Below, in pieces: positions 39,409-47,570 of a stretch of 64,000 nucleotides of DNA; position 1 is the stretch's first letter; every line of letters starts with the position of its first letter. The DNA is from a virus. The notes under the pieces were generated by a model that searched no databases, was not told the origin of the DNA, and worked only from the letters and a program-made list of their open reading frames with translations. The position numbers and the translations under genes were made by a program. The DNA is taken from IMG/VR virus record IMGVR_UViG_3300023179_000106, positions 1 through 64,000 of that record; one strand, given 5' to 3'.

Positions 39409-40257
39409 ATGATACTTCGAAGACTAGAAAATGGCAATTCCGCCCTCTATCACCTCATGAACATCGAGCACATATCCGTGTCGAGGGGCAAGTCCTATAG
39501 GCAATGCCCATACTACTACAAACTCAAGTACCACGACAAAATACCTAATCCGGGCGAGGAGCAGTTCTATTTCGTCTACGGCAAGATAATCCACAAAATA
39601 GCCGAATGCCACGTGGCAGAGGAGGGTGCCAGGAGCATCAAGGAGATATCCAAGGAGGTGCTTGGCGGGAAGATCGAACTAGAGCACGGGAAGTTCGCGC
39701 CTCCTTTGCCGCCGGAGTTCAGAAGTCGTCTGCCGGGGCATCTCAAGGCCTTGGAGAGGCTCAACAAGAAGATCGGATGCTCCGGAATCACGGAGCACAA
39801 ATTCAGGTACGACCTGGAGATCCCCAACTGCAAGTATGTGACGGGTTTTATCGACCGTATCATACTGAAGGAGGGCAAGGCGTGGATAATCGATTACAAG
39901 ACCACGAAGAAGGGCCCGTTCAGGGAGGATAAGAAAACCATCAAGTACGACCCCCAGCTTCGGATCTATTCCAGGGTCGTGCAGAAGGAGTTCGGGATAG
40001 ATCCGAAGGACATCAGGGCCGCGTTGTTCTACCTTGAGGACGAGGAGATCATAGACGCTTCGTACTCGGAGGAGTCTCTGGAGGCGGCCGAAAGAGAACT
40101 TCTGGAGTTGTACGACTCTATAAGCTCGCACCGGGCCGAAGACGCCAGGGGAATAACGGGACAGCACTGCAAGCGGTGCGAATACAGAGACATGTGCCCC
40201 TTCTTCAAGAACAGCCAGAGAAAGGTCTATTGGAACGGCGACCTGTCGTCTCTCTGA
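39409..40257 (+). CDS. PD-(D/E)XK nuclease (Cas4/RecB/AddB-like, Fe-S cluster)
   Basis: A 282-residue exonuclease-type protein. The N-terminal ISVSRGKSYRQCPYYYKLKY contains the first cluster cysteine, GFIDRI near residue 146 gives the catalytic Asp, IIDYKTTK near 161 the D-x-K, and HCKRCEYRDMC near 253 the three last cysteines of a 4Fe-4S cluster. Such proteins process DNA ends and could act in replication or recombination. ATG 39409 is used. ATG 39457 is an alternative, since homology to the family begins there. The stop overlaps the convergent serine protease gene. Confidence 0.87.
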   Translation: MILRRLENGNSALYHLMNIEHISVSRGKSYRQCPYYYKLKYHDKIPNPGEEQFYFVYGKIIHKIAECHVAEEGARSIKEISKEVLGGKIELEHGKFAPPLPPEFRSRLPGHLKALERLNKKIGCSGITEHKFRYDLEIPNCKYVTGFIDRIILKEGKAWIIDYKTTKKGPFREDKKTIKYDPQLRIYSRVVQKEFGIDPKDIRAALFYLEDEEIIDASYSEESLEAAERELLELYDSISSHRAEDARGITGQHCKRCEYRDMCPFFKNSQRKVYWNGDLSSL

Positions 40258-41111
40258 TTTCGGTTCGATGGTCTGGGCACGAAGTGCCTGTCGTACCTCG
40301 CCTCTGGATTCTCTCTGTCGACCACCGGTATCGCGGACGGGTCGAAGGCCGAAGAAAGAAGCCAGGCGTGTGCGTTTTTCGTGAACACCTCGCTGATCGC
40401 GGAGAGCGGCGTGAAGAATCCGATCCCGTCGCCCGAAGATACGTCGGAAGTACCCCAACACACGCCCACAAGTAGCCCGTCGTCGGTGAGCAGCCCTCCA
40501 CCCGACCTGCCCGGGCGCGGGCTGTTCAGCCTCGTTACGAGGTCGGCGCCCTCCGTGGACTTCACGACGACTTCGTAGCGCGCGACCTCTTTTCCTCCGT
40601 CGCATCCCATCGAGTTCAGGCGCATTCCGACCTTCGGAGAGAAACCCATCGAGATCGGAGCGAAGGAGCATTCCCAGTCTGGCTTGAACCTGAGTAGGCT
40701 GACGTCTTGTCCTCTCCTGTTGCTCCAGAATAGCACCTCTGCCTCGTAGGAGGCGGGAGAGGCCAGCCTGGGTCCATCCTGATACCAGGTGGTTATTTTG
40801 GCTCGCTCCATTCCGTTCGGGCTGTAGTCCATATCTCCGCTCCACAGGTGGCCGCAGGATATTACATAAGCCCATCCCGTTTCCCTGTCGTAATGGCATA
40901 TGGTTCCGGAGCCCGCCGCGCCGTGGACGGAAATTCTCACGGAAACCATCAGCAGGTTCTGGAACCTCTCGTCCCTTTGCTCGTTTAGTATGCACGGGCT
41001 GTAGGAGCAGGACTCCCTGTATAGGGGGTGCTCAGGGGCGACGGGCGAAGCCGTCGCAGACGATGCCCAAGAGAGGGCTAGAATGATCCCCAGAAGCAAA
41101 ATCCTTTTCAT
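40227..41111 (-). CDS. Secreted trypsin-like serine protease
   Basis: A 294-residue protein with an N-terminal Sec signal peptide (MKRILLLGIILALSWASS, likely cut after ATA near 21). The chymotrypsin-like triad is visible: His88 in YVISCGHLW, Asp136 in QDVSLLRF and Ser203 in PRPGRSGGGLL. It resembles Trypsin-2/Deg-type proteases without PDZ domains. The C-terminus carries a tail with RHFVPRPS at residues 276-282, shared with the cysteine protease encoded nearby. Start ATG 41111 is preferred over an ATG 15 bases upstream because GGAGG lies 8 bases away. It probably acts in the host periplasm. Confidence 0.88.
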   Translation of the reverse strand: MKRILLLGIILALSWASSATASPVAPEHPLYRESCSYSPCILNEQRDERFQNLLMVSVRISVHGAAGSGTICHYDRETGWAYVISCGHLWSGDMDYSPNGMERAKITTWYQDGPRLASPASYEAEVLFWSNRRGQDVSLLRFKPDWECSFAPISMGFSPKVGMRLNSMGCDGGKEVARYEVVVKSTEGADLVTRLNSPRPGRSGGGLLTDDGLLVGVCWGTSDVSSGDGIGFFTPLSAISEVFTKNAHAWLLSSAFDPSAIPVVDRENPEARYDRHFVPRPSNRNQRDDRSPFQ

Positions 41112-41139
41112 ATTTTCAGCCTCCATGCCGTACTAGTTT

Positions 41140-41147
41140 TATATAGG
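41140..41147 (+). promoter_or_regulatory. Bidirectional TATATAGG promoter-like element
   Basis: TTATATAGG lies in the short gap between the divergent serine protease gene and the gene at 41155, with the reverse strand reading CCTATATAA. The plus-strand ATG is only 7 bases downstream, so the transcript would be nearly leaderless. Confidence 0.45.
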
Positions 41148-41154
41148 TTTTACG

Positions 41155-41670
41155 ATGTCCAATAATCTCGCCCTGTTCGTCACTCACCACGTATTTTTGA
41201 CCGACCACGAAATCTCGCTGGCCGTTTGCGGTCGCTCGCTGCGGAAGATCGGACACTGCGTCCCCGTGTGGGTTGATGCAAAAACTGGCAAGACGACGGA
41301 GCCGGCCAAAGAGGTTTTTTGCGACTATCACTTGGCGGGGATATCGGAATCCTCCGGCGAGGTGAAATTGGAAGGCGACGCGACATTCAGAATCATGCTG
41401 CCGAACGCGGGTGCTTGGAAACCGCCGCAGGAGTTGGACTTCGCCGAAATGGCCGAGTGGACGAGCGAGATGAGGCTTGAATTTATGAAGCAGAGGGATG
41501 CATGGTGGTTCAACAACCCCAGGCCATCGGACTTCAAAGACCTTGCTCGTGGATACCTGCGTTTCGAGGTGAGGAAACAGGATTTGAAGCTGGGGCGCAG
41601 GAAGTACTCGGCACAGCACGTGGTCGAGATCGCGTCTGAAAAAAGGTTGCTTGACTCCCTAACAGCCTGA
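41155..41670 (+). CDS. Hypothetical protein
   Basis: A 171-residue protein without recognised domains. The N-terminus (LALFVTHHVFLTDHEISLAV) is beta-rich and the C-terminus (DLARGYLRFEVRKQDLKL) is charged. There is no signal peptide. It is divergent from the serine protease gene and shares its promoter gap, and overlaps the convergent downstream gene by 12 bases. A link to the protease, such as an inhibitor, is only a guess from its position. Confidence 0.65.
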   Translation: MSNNLALFVTHHVFLTDHEISLAVCGRSLRKIGHCVPVWVDAKTGKTTEPAKEVFCDYHLAGISESSGEVKLEGDATFRIMLPNAGAWKPPQELDFAEMAEWTSEMRLEFMKQRDAWWFNNPRPSDFKDLARGYLRFEVRKQDLKLGRRKYSAQHVVEIASEKRLLDSLTA

Positions 41671-42165
41671 AAGCGACATGGCCATCCGTATGGATATTGT
41701 CTCCCCCGGAGACACGACGAGGTTCTGGCCTATGTTCGCGGACGATATGAGAATGGTTCCGCTTCCGTAGTCCACTCCTGTGCTCATGAAGATGTTCCGA
41801 ACCGGACCCCACGACTCCGTGGTGGATGTGAACAAGACCGTCGGGCTGTTGGCCTGGTTGCCCGTCGGAGCAGACGTGACATCGAAGTTGTCGGATCGGA
41901 TCGCCTGACGCTCGTAACCACCTGCGTCGGGCTCCAAGCCTTCCAGGGTGGCTATGGTGTCCGACGCCGAAATCGAACTCCTTGAGTCCAAGCCGAGATA
42001 GTACTGGTTCGGTATCTCGCCTCCCGCGAACAGAACTCGCAGTATGTAGTCCTCTCCAAGCACGTGCATCGTGTTAAGTATGTTCCGTTCCGTTCGCAGG
42101 ACGCTTCCGGTGCGGGATGTATGCACCAGTTCGACTATACGCATGATTCCATTCCACTTCTTCAT
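41659..42165 (-). CDS. Hypothetical virion-type protein
   Basis: A 168-residue beta-rich protein with no signal peptide. It contains GEDYILRVLFAGGEIPNQYY, SISASDTIATLEGLEP and a GYERQAI motif, which recall fibre- or capsid-decoration proteins found once per phage genome. It is alone on the minus strand between two protease-containing regions. The start is ATG 42165. Family not certain. Confidence 0.65.
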   Translation of the reverse strand: MKKWNGIMRIVELVHTSRTGSVLRTERNILNTMHVLGEDYILRVLFAGGEIPNQYYLGLDSRSSISASDTIATLEGLEPDAGGYERQAIRSDNFDVTSAPTGNQANSPTVLFTSTTESWGPVRNIFMSTGVDYGSGTILISSANIGQNLVVSPGETISIRMAMSLSGC

Positions 42166-42213
42166 GACCTAATTTAGGCCCGCTGGCATCCTTTTTGATC
42201 GGAGGCGGTGCAG

Positions 42214-42223
42214 CATAAATAGG
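42214..42223 (+). promoter_or_regulatory. CATAAATAGG late-promoter-like element adjacent to ATG
   Basis: CATAAATA is followed by GGTC and then ATG 42226. The same arrangement occurs before 57961. No Shine-Dalgarno sequence lies at normal distance, so a leaderless transcript is likely. Confidence 0.55.
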
Positions 42224-42225
42224 TC

Positions 42226-42408
42226 ATGGAATTCAAGAGGTGGCTGGCGGAGGTTGGCATGGGGGGCGGAGGGCCGGGTTCTGGGATGGCGCCGCCGCTC
42301 CAGAGGCCCGGAGTGGAGGCCCTTGCTGATTATCAGGGCCCTGAGCAGACCGATCCCAGAAATCCCAAGGGGAAGCTGCCCCCGACAAAAAGGAAAATCA
42401 AGAAATGA
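42226..42408 (+). CDS. Small Gly/Pro-rich protein with F..WL signature
   Basis: A 60-residue protein starting MEFKRWLAEVGMGGG. Residues 12-60 are Gly-, Pro- and Lys-rich and probably unstructured, ending in a basic PPTKRKIKK tail. The N-terminus matches the signature seen on several other proteins in this window. It overlaps the cysteine protease gene by ATGA, so they are probably co-translated. Confidence 0.6.
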   Translation: MEFKRWLAEVGMGGGGPGSGMAPPLQRPGVEALADYQGPEQTDPRNPKGKLPPTKRKIKK

Positions 42409-43124
42409 GGTCAGCATTCGCATTTCTTCTGGTGGTGTTCGCACATGTGGCTCTGGCCTCTGATGGGGACGCGATCGCCAGGTACAAGGTGGCTACCGAG
42501 GATTTTTCGTCCGAAAAAGCCCACATCAACACGGTTGTGCCGGCATATGTGTCCTCTGGTCGGGACGAGCCGGTAGAGACGCTTCAGTGCCCGATACCCC
42601 GCTCCGACCGAGTGAAGAACTTCACGGGCATTCAGTGCGTGTGGTCGTCCATAGAGACGCTCGGCAGATGGGCGGGGGAGGAGAGGCTCATGATCCCTCC
42701 GCTAACCAGCAGGGCGCAATGCAAGAGTTACTCCGGCCCCGACAAGTCCGCAACGGTCATGAAGTCGTTAGGGGTCAGATTCTCGCAGACTTACGGCGAC
42801 AAAAGGAAGGGCGTGGAGATGATAAGGGCTGCAATGGAGCAGGGTCGCGGAGCTCTTTTTGACGTCCCGGGCCACGCGATGGTGCTTGTGCACTTCGACG
42901 AGGCCGGGGACAGGGCTTGCTGGATCGACAATTCCGACGAGACGCTCAAGGTTCAGAAGAGCACGGTCGCGGCCTTCATGAAGAGGTGGGGGTCGTGGGT
43001 TCTAGTCATCTACGCAGAGCAGGAAATCGTGCAATATAAGGCATATGGGCCATTTATGCCCGTGATGGAGGCCGAACCTCCCTTTCTTCGACTCGAGGGA
43101 AATTTCGTGCCCCGTCCTCACTAA
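42405..43124 (+). CDS. Secreted cysteine protease-like protein (papain/C39-like pattern)
   Basis: A 239-residue protein with a signal peptide (MRSAFAFLLVVFAHVALAS) and a Cys-His-Asn order seen in papain-fold peptidases: Cys78 in FTGIQCVWSSIETLG, His157 in VPGHAMVLVHFDE and Asp175/Asn176 in CWIDNSDE. The Cys-containing helix and the GHA strand fit C39 or transglutaminase-like enzymes. The protein ends EGNFVPRPH, repeating the FVPRP tail of the secreted serine protease. Function in the host envelope is inferred from the signal peptide. The ATG overlaps the upstream stop. Confidence 0.78.
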   Translation: MRSAFAFLLVVFAHVALASDGDAIARYKVATEDFSSEKAHINTVVPAYVSSGRDEPVETLQCPIPRSDRVKNFTGIQCVWSSIETLGRWAGEERLMIPPLTSRAQCKSYSGPDKSATVMKSLGVRFSQTYGDKRKGVEMIRAAMEQGRGALFDVPGHAMVLVHFDEAGDRACWIDNSDETLKVQKSTVAAFMKRWGSWVLVIYAEQEIVQYKAYGPFMPVMEAEPPFLRLEGNFVPRPH

Positions 43125-44957: not shown

Positions 44958-45401
44958 TCAAGAGCTCTCCCAGTCGTCTTCGTCTTCGTCTTCGTCTTCC
45001 CAATCATCTTCGTCTTCGTAGTCGTCCCAGTCGTCCTCGTCCTCGTCCTCCCAATCTTCATCTTCGTCGTCTTCTTCATCTTCGTCGTCTTCGTCGTATT
45101 CGTCGTCTTCTTCATCTTCGTCGTCTTCTTCATCTTCGTCGTATCCGCGCCAATCATCGGCATCGTCGTCTTCATCTTCATCATCCTGATCGTCTTCAAG
45201 GATTTCCTCGTAGTCTTCTTCGTCCTCATCGCCGTAAGAAGCTTCCTCCCAACTCCATTCCGCTATGTATTGGAGACGAGACGGCTCATGCGGACTTTCT
45301 GATGTCTGATCGGACTTTGCGCTTGCAGAAGCCCACTCTTCATACCACCCAGTGCCGTATATGTCATCGGCAGACTCTTCGAAATCCTCTCTGAAGTGCA
45401 T
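44958..45401 (-). CDS. Extremely acidic protein (possible DNA-mimic)
   Basis: A 147-residue protein. Residues 1-55 look ordinary (MHFREDFEESADDIYGTGWY). Residues 57-145 are almost entirely Asp and Glu punctuated by Trp and Tyr, for example EDWEDEDEDDWDDYEDEDDW. The start ATG 45401 has AAGGAG upstream. The composition recalls DNA-mimic anti-restriction proteins and histone-chaperone tails, but there is no fold evidence. The nucleotide repeat (GAC/GAA triplets) suggests triplet expansion. It ends 18 bases from the convergent gene at 44939. Confidence 0.75.
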   Translation of the reverse strand: MHFREDFEESADDIYGTGWYEEWASASAKSDQTSESPHEPSRLQYIAEWSWEEASYGDEDEEDYEEILEDDQDDEDEDDDADDWRGYDEDEEDDEDEEDDEYDEDDEDEEDDEDEDWEDEDEDDWDDYEDEDDWEDEDEDEDDWESS

Positions 45402-45506: not shown

Positions 45507-46229
45507 TCAGCGCATGAATTTACGAACCAGTTTGCCTCCCGACTCCTCCCACATGCCGTCGGACAGGGCCTGGGCGACGCAAGCCGCGGAGGCCAAGCGG
45601 GCCTCTTTTGGGTCGTGCACGACCTCGTCGACCAGCTTGCCTGACGGGTCGAATTCGTAGTAGGAATCCGAGGCGATCTCCACCTCTAGGTCTGGGCTCA
45701 CATTGAGCACAGAGACGACTGGCAGGTCTGATATCTTGGCGTATTTCGGCTCCCTGACCGCCACGATCGCGCCTCCGCCCTTCGTTTTGACGACCTTGTC
45801 GCCCCGATTGAGGCCGACGAGAACCTCGGCCCAGGACTTCGAAGAAAGCGCCTTGATTTCGTTGGGCTCCACTATCTTCCAAGCCACAAACACTTCCCGG
45901 AAAATGTTCGATATGTCCGCGCCTTGATCTTTTGCGCAGGCCACCATGCATTTCGCCGCGGCCGAATAGTACTTGGGCGTTCTGGGGGTGAGGGGCACGG
46001 CCTTGAGCAGGACGGAAAAGCATATGTCTCTGGCCTTCTTGAACGCCACGGACCTCGCGTCTCCTTTGGCCACAAGGGAGTCATAGACCTTGGTGAATGC
46101 GTTGTACCAGGCTGCCGAAAAAACCCTTCCGAAGCTGTGGCACTCCGCCGCTAGCTTGTTGTTGGATGTTTCGGCGGGAAGCTTGGACGGGTCGACGTAC
46201 AGGAAAAGCTCTCTGGCGGGGTCGCGCAA
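45507..46229 (-). pseudogene. C-terminal half of a frameshifted thermolysin-like metalloprotease
   Basis: Read alone this frame gives 240 residues from TTG 46229 (LRDPARELFLYVDPSKL). The frame remains open further upstream, and its reading between about 46250 and 46229 (DPSYLPNALRDPARE) joins sensibly to the N-terminal half encoded at 46151-46903. It contains CHSFGRVFSAAWYNAFTK near residue 31, matching the H..G..F..A.Y block of thermolysin-type (M4) peptidases. The C-terminal third (150-240) is beta-rich and may be a separate domain. A -1 shift in reading (or a one-base deletion) is needed to join the halves. Confidence 0.65.
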
Positions 46230-46903
46230 GGCGTTGGGGAGGTAGGACGGGTCTTGGTGACGGCCCTTATGAGTTCGCCGACCTCTTCGGCAAGGCGGGA
46301 GGCGGAGTTGGAGAGCCTCAGGTCGCCGCCCGTTTCCTTGAGTACCTTTTCTATCACCGCGTCATAATTCATGAGATTGAACATCGCCACGATGTCGGAG
46401 AACGCCTCGTGGAACGACCATATCTCGAGAGCCTGGACGCTCCAGAAGTCGGGTCTCATAGAGTCGAGCACGGCGTGTCCCAGTTCGTGCGTCACTATGT
46501 CCGAGGAGTCTGCGAAGTATGTGTTTTTGCCCCTGTAGTTGTAGTAGAAGAACCTGAGGGAACGCCTGTCGTAGTACGCGTTCATTTCTACCCCGGCCGC
46601 CGGAATCACGGAAAGAGAGCTGGTGGCCGCCCACCGCTGCAGGGGCGACTTCAGCAGGGCCTGGATCGCGTTTATGCAGGATCCCACGGAGATGTGGCAG
46701 TTGAGGGCCCTTCTTTCGCTGGCGTTTTTTGGCTGCGGCGACAGGCCTTGAACCGAGTATTTCAGAGCCCCAATGGCGGGCGGCTGGACGTTCGCTACCA
46801 GGTCGGGGGTGGTGGGGTCGTTTATCACGAAGCCTCCAACCATGTTGACCAGTTCCGCGCGTATCTTTGCGAGGCGTCCCGCCTCCGTGGTTTTCTTGAG
46901 CAT
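46151..46903 (-). CDS. Thermolysin-like (M4) metalloprotease, N-terminal half, frame changes near 46255
   Basis: A 250-residue frame starting ATG 46903 with AAGGAGG 4-5 bases upstream. The zinc-binding HELGH is at residues 139-143 (SDIVTHELGHAVLDSM) and the third ligand Glu at 166 in WSFHEAFSDIVAMF, the hallmark of M4 peptidases. There is no signal peptide. The frame is protein-like until about residue 220 (LIRAVTK), after which it degenerates to low-complexity Thr/Pro/Ser, while the overlapping frame continues the family homology. The gene may be a pseudogene, need programmed frameshifting, or contain a sequence error. Confidence 0.72.
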   Translation of the reverse strand: MLKKTTEAGRLAKIRAELVNMVGGFVINDPTTPDLVANVQPPAIGALKYSVQGLSPQPKNASERRALNCHISVGSCINAIQALLKSPLQRWAATSSLSVIPAAGVEMNAYYDRRSLRFFYYNYRGKNTYFADSSDIVTHELGHAVLDSMRPDFWSVQALEIWSFHEAFSDIVAMFNLMNYDAVIEKVLKETGGDLRLSNSASRLAEEVGELIRAVTKTRPTSPTPCATPPESFSCTSTRPSFPPKHPTTS

Positions 46904-46952: not shown

Positions 46953-47570
46953 ATGATGGATTCCTTCCACTCGCACGAAAGAGCGTTCATCGGACGAATA
47001 GGGGAGAAAGAATGGAGGGAATACAAGAGATTCGCCTTCAGGGACGACATGCTGAAGCTGAGCGTGGGAGTCGTGCTCGGAAGCGCATTCAACAAGGTGG
47101 CAAACAGCATTTCCGACAACCTCTTGATGCCCGTTCTGTCGTTCCTCGCGCTTGATGCCGGGGAGGCCTGGAGGGACTGGTCTTGGAGTCCTCTGGTCGG
47201 CCTGAACTTCAGGCTGGGGCGGGTTGCGGGAGACGGGTTCGACTTTCTTATCGTTTCGGTCGCCCTCTATCTCGTTTATGTCAAGATGGCCGGTTTTGGG
47301 CCGAAAGAGCCCCCTCCATGCAGGCGGTGTCGCCTGTGCATGGAGTGCGTGAACCCCGAGGCGGTCAAATGCAGGTCTTGTGGAGGAGAACTAGATGGCG
47401 TCGAAAGAAGAGATCGAGTCGAGGATAAAGGAACAAAGGACGGCGGAGGCGAACAAAAAAGGACTGATGGGTCAAGGAGGAAAGATCGGAACCGTGCTTC
47501 GGATGCTGGGAAGTCCGATAGTCGGCCAGTCGGAAGACGTCGCGTTCCTCGATCTCGAGGGAAGGGGTGA
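46953..47570 (+). CDS. mscL: MscL-like mechanosensitive channel with zinc-ribbon-like tail
   Basis: A 205-residue protein. Residues 24-112 align by eye with large-conductance mechanosensitive channels: an N-terminal amphipathic helix, TM1 LKLSVGVVLGSAFNKVANSI near 35-53, and TM2 DGFDFLIVSVALYLVYVKM near 94-112. The DFLIV motif in TM2 is characteristic. Residues 123-143 carry C..C..C..C and a later C..C pair, a possible metal ribbon. The last 60 residues are charged, rich in Arg, Lys, Asp and Gly, and overlap the next gene. It would pass ions and small solutes under membrane tension. A role in lysis or osmotic protection is inference. Confidence 0.85.
   Translation: MMDSFHSHERAFIGRIGEKEWREYKRFAFRDDMLKLSVGVVLGSAFNKVANSISDNLLMPVLSFLALDAGEAWRDWSWSPLVGLNFRLGRVAGDGFDFLIVSVALYLVYVKMAGFGPKEPPPCRRCRLCMECVNPEAVKCRSCGGELDGVERRDRVEDKGTKDGGGEQKRTDGSRRKDRNRASDAGKSDSRPVGRRRVPRSRGKG

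Follow-up and report, generated by a model that had tools for sequence, protein, structure and literature searches.

Two unrelated, predicted secreted proteases encoded in a stretch of viral DNA (the window, 64,000 bases long and corresponding to bases 1-64,000 of the 65,674-base IMG/VR virus record IMGVR_UViG_3300023179_000106) end in related forms of one module of ca. 21 residues. PHROG matches (portal, terminase, prohead protease, tape measure and baseplate wedge) identify this virus as a T4-type myovirus. In this phage and its relatives, which are large bacterial viruses not yet in culture, the module is shared by four protease families, is C-terminal, is absent from open reading frames (ORFs) other than those of these proteases, and matches between the tagged proteins of a same genome. 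It probably corresponds to a transferable address or docking tag that a single shared reader, itself differing between phage lineages, would bind outside the cytoplasm.

The C-terminal module and its distribution

The first of the two products is an HtrA/DegS-like serine protease (Trypsin_2; Pfam E=1.1e-8) encoded on the minus strand at 40227..41111, with a predicted signal peptide, the His-Asp-Ser residues and the C-terminal tail. It is 294 residues long when counted from the ATG at 41111, or 299 from an upstream ATG at 41126, and its C-terminus reads ...RYDRHFVPRPSNRNQRDDRSPFQ before the stop codon, with FVPRP at residues 277-281 followed by 13 polar residues. The second, encoded on the plus strand at 42405..43124, is a papain-like (C39/C70-like) cysteine protease of 239 residues that is also predicted to be secreted, has no match in Pfam and ends in ...LEGNFVPRPH. 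Both have a signal-peptide-like N-terminal start. An earlier note on this DNA had reported FVPRP at both C-termini and in no other product of the window. The former was confirmed and the latter was found to hold for the whole record, in which the corresponding DNA pattern (TTYGTNCCNMGNCC, whose MGN also admits Ser) has exactly two matches, located at both proteases, and none when read backwards. By itself, a match of five residues is weak evidence, and it is conservation that carries the case.

The likeness between the two tails reaches ca. 16 residues upstream of FVPRP: IPVVDRENPEARYDRHFVPRP (40269..40331, minus strand; tail profile E=1.7e-9 and 9.0e-9) and MPVMEAEPPFLRLEGNFVPRP (43056..43118, plus strand; E=3.2e-6 and 7.9e-5) are identical at 10 of 21 positions. 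Since only 4 of these 10 shared residues keep the same codon, the tails of the window do not represent a recent DNA copy. Relatives have variants of it in the corresponding C-terminal position, namely FVPLP, YIPIP, FIPIP or YIPLP in the serine and FIPLP or YVPFP in the cysteine family, so that FVPRP taken literally was rejected as the motif, its positions 1 to 4 differing among relatives. Judging from these comparisons, the true unit is the C-terminal module of ca. 21 residues, of which FVPRP is the form found in the phage of the window. The idea put forward in the earlier note, that unrelated secreted proteases share a short sorting, docking or packaging signal, is in general terms strongly supported by its occurrence in four families, its C-terminal position, its absence elsewhere and its co-variation, but the five letters proposed as the motif are not that signal. 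The search of related phages that the note had called for likewise recovered the module at the C-terminus, with literal FVPRP varying.

The module follows the consensus IPIxDRNxPQGxYPxxY-I-[P/L]-x-P, with an end of the form [FY][VI][PL]xP. Over 116 distinct tails the commonest letters are IPIIDRNNPQGKYPKDYI[P/L]LP, and the highest information lies in I/L-P-I, D, Y and Y-I-[P/L]-x-P. The final P is built into the motif used for counting, and its frequency in this count is therefore not independent evidence; it is, however, invariant (39/39) in a serine protease alignment made without that motif. A variable linker parts the module from the protease core. In 94 of 125 cases, the module lies 0-3 residues from the C-terminus. 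Extensions past it include the 13 residues of the window serine protease and 50 residues in a cysteine protease (locus L012).

Relatives were gathered from IMG/VR (4 loci and later 56 for the serine protease, 5 at first for the cysteine protease), and tail profiles were searched against 30 and then 50 whole virus or metagenome-assembled genome (MAG) records. The whole-record searches added distant cysteine proteases together with two further protease groups, designated caspase-1 and caspase-2, and later searches yielded 58 cysteine, 22 caspase-1 and 5 caspase-2 loci. Overall, 126 distinct stop-containing ORFs were found in viral contigs (56 serine, 46 cysteine, 18 caspase-1 and 6 caspase-2), distinct here meaning by exact sequence, with near-copies included and a few ORFs cut at the 5' end by the locus boundary. 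A permissive motif occurs in 125 of the 126 (55 of the 56 serine relatives), and the tail can be fairly counted in all but about three. Caspase-1 proteins are caspase-like C14 peptidases according to Pfam (L075, E=3.7e-10; L081, E=5.5e-10). The two caspase-2 members scanned (L076 and L092) gave no Pfam match, to C14/C13 or otherwise, and for this group the GHG...SC pattern alone suggests a caspase-like nature. In the papain-like family, Pfam detects C70 only in relative L074, under the cut-off (E=0.049).

That the families share the tail was assessed with profiles from which one family was held out, using as controls 3,572 distinct ORF ends, spurious ORFs included. At a threshold of at least 10 bits, a serine-trained profile recovered 53/70 proteins of other families versus none of the control ends and 1/1,400 shuffles. 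The corresponding values were 61/80, 2/3,572 and 1/1,600 for a cysteine-trained profile, and 81/102, 0/3,572 and 2/2,040 for a caspase-trained one. In the 50 virus or MAG records, all 64 profile matches at E<=1e-4 fall in the four protease families, as assigned via coordinates and ORF length to ORFs already translated; 8 weaker matches comprise 3 of these proteases and 5 chance hits, the latter in ORFs with a different end. A scan of 2.9 million IMG/VR viral contigs with a DNA pattern for DRNxxQGx[YF]xxxY[IV]P returned 15 stretches in 14 contigs, every one a protease end (11 serine, 3 cysteine and 1 caspase-2); about 0.2-0.3 matches to this pattern would be expected by chance, an estimate to which no weight is given because the collection size was approximated. 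In BLAST comparisons between unrelated families, alignments chiefly cover the tail, with up to 86% over 22 residues (L087 serine versus L088 cysteine protease).

Tails also co-vary within genomes. Serine and cysteine protease tails of a same genome have a similarity of 45.4 versus 30.7 when permuted (15 genomes; 0/20,000 permutations), and 50.0 versus 35.0 in 12 dereplicated genomes (0/20,000). In the group ending mostly in Y-I-P-x-P the values are 57.9 versus 44.1 (7 genomes, p=1e-4). When the distances of both protease cores are taken into account, a partial Mantel test yields r=0.48 (0/5,000). Identical serine and cysteine tail residues use the same codon in 7/16 cases in G011, 5/14 in G050 and 2/12 in G015, exceptions with mostly shared codons being G001 (5/5) and G018 (4/5). 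Because codons mostly differ at identical residues, it is selection, and not a recent copying event, that has kept the likeness in most genomes. The serine protease tail LKIIDRNNSQKSYEENYIFSP and the caspase-like tail LKIIDKNNSQGKYDENYFISP of MAG G044 are identical at 15 of 21 positions and both have the same uncommon SP ending.

Tagged and untagged exported proteins

Proteins carrying the module are probably active and exported, as indicated by sequence features at their N-terminus and active site. In the serine family, H88, D136 and the GRSGGG motif are invariant in 39 aligned relatives; Q77, C78, H157, N176 and D178 are invariant in 14 aligned cysteine proteases, and H119 and C162 in 3 aligned caspase-1 proteins. 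The His/Cys dyad is invariant in the alignments of both caspase-like groups. A crude hydropathy rule for a signal peptide or anchor selected 51/58 serine, 43/47 cysteine, 16/19 caspase-1 and 6/6 caspase-2 proteins (116/130 in total), and a lipobox-like sequence was found in a few (L123, L124 and L130). An AlphaFold model of the serine protease (mean predicted local distance difference test, pLDDT, of 86.5) has the DegS/DegP protease domains as best PDB matches; its last ca. 34 residues (261-294) are without secondary structure, with block pLDDT values of 52-77. For the cysteine protease, the model was of low quality (pLDDT 53) and was left aside.

Other exported peptidases occur in the same phages, namely M28 aminopeptidases (33 loci, Pfam E=8e-42) and M14 carboxypeptidases (17 loci, Pfam E=1.2e-27). 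No tail was seen in any member read of these two groups or of an M4-like metalloprotease. A tag placed on every exported protein was rejected since the M28 and M14 groups end differently, and a tag on every protease of these phages was rejected since the M4-like metalloprotease is devoid of it. Among 1,589 crude gene models of four large records, 77 of which have signal-like starts, 8 score above 12 bits with the tail profile and all 8 are these proteases. This result and the lack of tail in the M28, M14 and M4-like proteins indicate that the tail marks a set of exported endoproteases and not exported proteins generally.

Some of these proteins have features of their own. The exported M28 aminopeptidases possess a conserved His-rich C-terminus, often xxYxHDHGHPExPF (L012 349-1569, L006 596-1783 and about 30 loci). 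The M4-like metalloprotease of the window (HELGHA; 45513-46840, minus strand) lies in two frames and corresponds to one ORF in relatives such as L004, of which residues 40-229 and 231-479 align in different frames. The break, near 46265, may reflect an error in sequencing, a genuine frameshift or a programmed one. In L166 (8842-9273) and L168 (4739-5170), a small ORF adjacent to the cysteine protease gene has the C-terminus ...IEIINYDKEGMPVKLANPS. The cysteine-trained profile gives it 10.4-10.7 bits, and it may represent a carrier of a degenerate tag that is not a protease.

In the window proteases and relatives scanned, the tail was not covered by any model seen in Pfam, PHROG or NCBIfam. Six protease queries found no homologue by tblastn in 50,697 records of named phages; 7 named phage records (five of 484-642 kb) gave no tail match either, a search that was without positive control and proves little. 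At the level of search results, the literature on phage-encoded secreted proteases with a C-terminal signal offered nothing relevant. The genome collection gave a single match, to a contig of a MAG that bears the title Neisseriaceae.

Candidate functions of the module

We propose that the N-terminus would send each endoprotease through Sec, while the tag follows a variable linker at the other end. Outside the cytoplasm, one common reader, either phage- or host-encoded, would bind the tag as a linear peptide and would concentrate the proteases at one place or assemble them into one complex. The tag may have moved onto unrelated proteases or evolved on them. This reader would not be the same in every phage lineage, so that tags within a phage would change together. 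The free C-terminal carboxylate is probably not needed by the reader, because extensions of 13 and 50 residues are tolerated. The tag itself is not catalytic; being a protease is what the cargo have in common.

Several observations weigh against such a tag. No reader was found: a TolQ/ExbB-like trio (see below) and small exported proteins were examined, none of which is universal, and when exported and membrane proteins of four large records were compared by blastp, only the serine protease had homologues in all four. Export was assigned by the crude hydropathy rule and not by a trained predictor. Residues 261-280 of the serine protease model have a pLDDT of 71-77, and some packing on the protein's own body is possible. 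Locus L059, the sole ORF missing the permissive motif, encodes an exported HtrA-like protease devoid of tail, and the tails of L187 (cysteine) and L209 (caspase-like) are degenerate or absent, the motif being matched with a poor score. Two of the 50 records, G021 and G042, have no profile match, because the L048/L049 tail has diverged and was missed by the profile. Finally, the within-genome excess is marginal in the Y-I-L-x-P group (39.0 versus 33.7; 5 genomes, p=0.049), and the P-to-L switch can be explained by as few as 3 changes in the tree of serine proteases and 2 in that of cysteine proteases, so that part of the within-genome signal corresponds to one shared event, that is to phylogeny.

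By analogy, the nearest system in architecture is the cargo of type IX secretion systems (T9SS). Their C-terminal domains (type A, TIGR04183/PF18962, and types B and C; gingipains and other Bacteroidota cargo) likewise provide one C-terminal address to unrelated Sec-exported cargo including proteases, and the combination of a signal peptide with a C-terminal signal on unrelated cargo is found here in four families (116/130 by the crude rule). This raises the possibility that the module is itself a host outer-membrane export signal of this kind, with phages hijacking host sorting to bring proteases to the cell surface. A short end can suffice for such export: according to an excerpt of PMC10202324, the last 22 residues of HBP35 are enough to export GFP. 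Moreover, Gln follows the predicted signal-peptidase site in 29/98 tail proteases (8/15 caspase-1, 13/37 cysteine and 8/42 serine), which is reminiscent of the Bacteroidetes Q-rule as presented in an extract of PMC5837995 and hints that the hosts of part of the clade may be Bacteroidota-like. This signal is mixed, however, and does not amount to a rule across the large genomes, where Gln occupies the +1 position in 0/20 (G050), 0/14 (G011), 2/19 (G016) and 2/15 (G022) predicted sites. T9SS models gave no match at E<=1 among 10 proteins with NCBIfam, and none in Pfam for the window proteases and relatives. Unlike the T9SS domain, the phage tag consists of ca. 21 residues after a variable linker and has no Ig-like fold, residues 261-294 being unstructured in the serine protease model; it also sits on phage genes, with endoproteases as the only carriers. 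It spans divergent phages whose hosts may differ. The possibility that hosts of the phylum to which the only matching MAG belongs use such a signal generally was rejected, since the sole match among 299 genomes is the MAG holding the phage contigs and 0/298 other sampled genomes have such tails. Altogether, a borrowed host export signal seems unlikely.

A second alternative is that the tail acts in cis, as an inhibitory propeptide, a folding aid or a common processing site that matures the proteases, for instance by a cut at the conserved Asp-Arg. Every tagged protein is a protease, residues 261-280 of the serine protease are modelled with moderate confidence, and the conserved Asp (90/116 distinct tails) followed by Arg (65/116) could be a cleavage site. 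One peptide would nevertheless have to fit the unrelated surfaces of trypsin-like, papain-like and caspase-like enzymes, conservation runs to the far end (Y-I-x-x-P), past any one cleavage site, and the exported M28 and M14 peptidases do without the tail. We regard an in-cis role as improbable.

Packaging, in which the tag would recruit proteases into heads or onto tails of virions for the next infection, is a still more doubtful explanation. T4-type myoviruses package enzymes and the two window proteases flank a Gp80-like fibre gene. These circumstances aside, nothing was found in favour of the virion link suggested in the earlier note: the signal-peptide-like N-termini point outside the cytoplasm and would remove the proteases from the compartment in which virions assemble, and the head-targeting sequence of T4 is N-terminal. 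The absence of any functional link (chance, or tails left over from the fusion or copying of protease genes) is largely refuted, for although a five-residue match alone could arise by chance, codons mostly differ at identical tail residues while the residues are kept, which implies long-term selection, and the cross-family recovery is 53/70 against 0/3,572 control ORF ends.

Other short C-terminal signals resemble the proposed docking tag in part. Sortase (LPXTG) and exosortase-type signals are short conserved motifs near the C-terminus of exported proteins, as is the phage tag, but unlike in LPXTG or PEP-CTERM-type signals neither a membrane segment nor a basic cluster follows the phage motif: in 94/125 cases 0-3 residues follow, and the extensions read are polar. 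PDZ ligands and degrons, such as the YxF peptide that activates DegS, are likewise short C-terminal peptides, and the phage serine protease core is DegS/DegP-like; the phage tag differs in tolerating 13-50 extra residues, so that a free carboxylate seems unnecessary. In cohesin-dockerin scaffolds and with encapsulin targeting peptides, one tag assembles unrelated enzymes on one receptor. The phage tag, unlike these, has no dockerin match, is viral and is probably extracytoplasmic. With HtrA/DegS proteases the phage serine protease shares the protease-domain fold, the His-Asp-Ser triad and weak NCBIfam HtrA matches, but no PDZ domain is detected by Pfam, and the linker and tag end the protein in 39/39 aligned sequences.

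A C-terminal tag on exported cargo is thus of a known kind, whereas the present tag, the set of cargo that carries it and its occurrence in viruses appear to be new; we know of no phage in which several unrelated exported proteases have a C-terminal address tag in common. More speculatively, large T4-type phages might run an extracytoplasmic address code of their own, based on a phage-specific C-terminal tag and a co-evolving receptor. Endoproteases of the HtrA-like, papain-like and caspase-like types would then be assembled into a single multi-protease machine located in the host envelope or on it, and this machine would be the viral equivalent of gingipain-type secretion or of the cellulosome; we hold this extended scheme only tentatively. 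If the docking tag is real, these phages would use several endoproteases in a coordinated manner to remodel the envelope or surface of their host, and the tag would offer a handle for finding the receptor and the targets. The tag also provides a search key, exported proteins of these phages that end in it being predicted to join the set. More broadly, it clearly illustrates how a short linear motif can be kept in step among three or four unrelated folds of a virus.

Neighbouring genes and further loci

In the window, the serine protease is convergent with a PD-(D/E)XK exonuclease (phrog_69; 39409..40257, plus strand; Pfam PF12705 E=3.5e-30, PHROG 69 E=1e-26), whose 3' end overlaps the final codons of the protease gene. 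On its other side lies a small conserved ORF of 171 residues (41155..41670, plus strand) with syntenic homologues in L004, L005 and L006 and belonging to a cluster of 49 loci, in which neither a signal peptide nor the tail was seen. The Gp80-like (podophage GP4 fibre I) protein encoded between both proteases (41659..42165, minus strand) matches PF23140 under the curated cut-off (E=5.7e-5) and is also devoid of the tail.

Elsewhere in the window, an extremely Asp/Glu-rich ORF is found beside the metalloprotease (44958-45401, minus strand) and a similar one occurs in L004 (6874-7335). A homologue of the MscL mechanosensitive channel (46953-47567, plus strand; Pfam E=5.9e-15) has relatives in 13 other loci. 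In L024 (8014-10029), L015 (16061-18005) and 7 other loci, the serine protease is flanked by a set of three genes. One encodes a proton-channel protein of the MotA/TolQ/ExbB type (Pfam E=7e-8), another a protein that is anchored in the membrane and probably has a periplasmic domain, and the last a further membrane protein, a set that constitutes a putative phage-encoded envelope motor. Finally, an actin/ParM-like protein in L064 (4616-6754) is apparently interrupted by an intein (CLCPGTKIYTKEG...HNC), its uninterrupted relative in G050 being 337 residues long.

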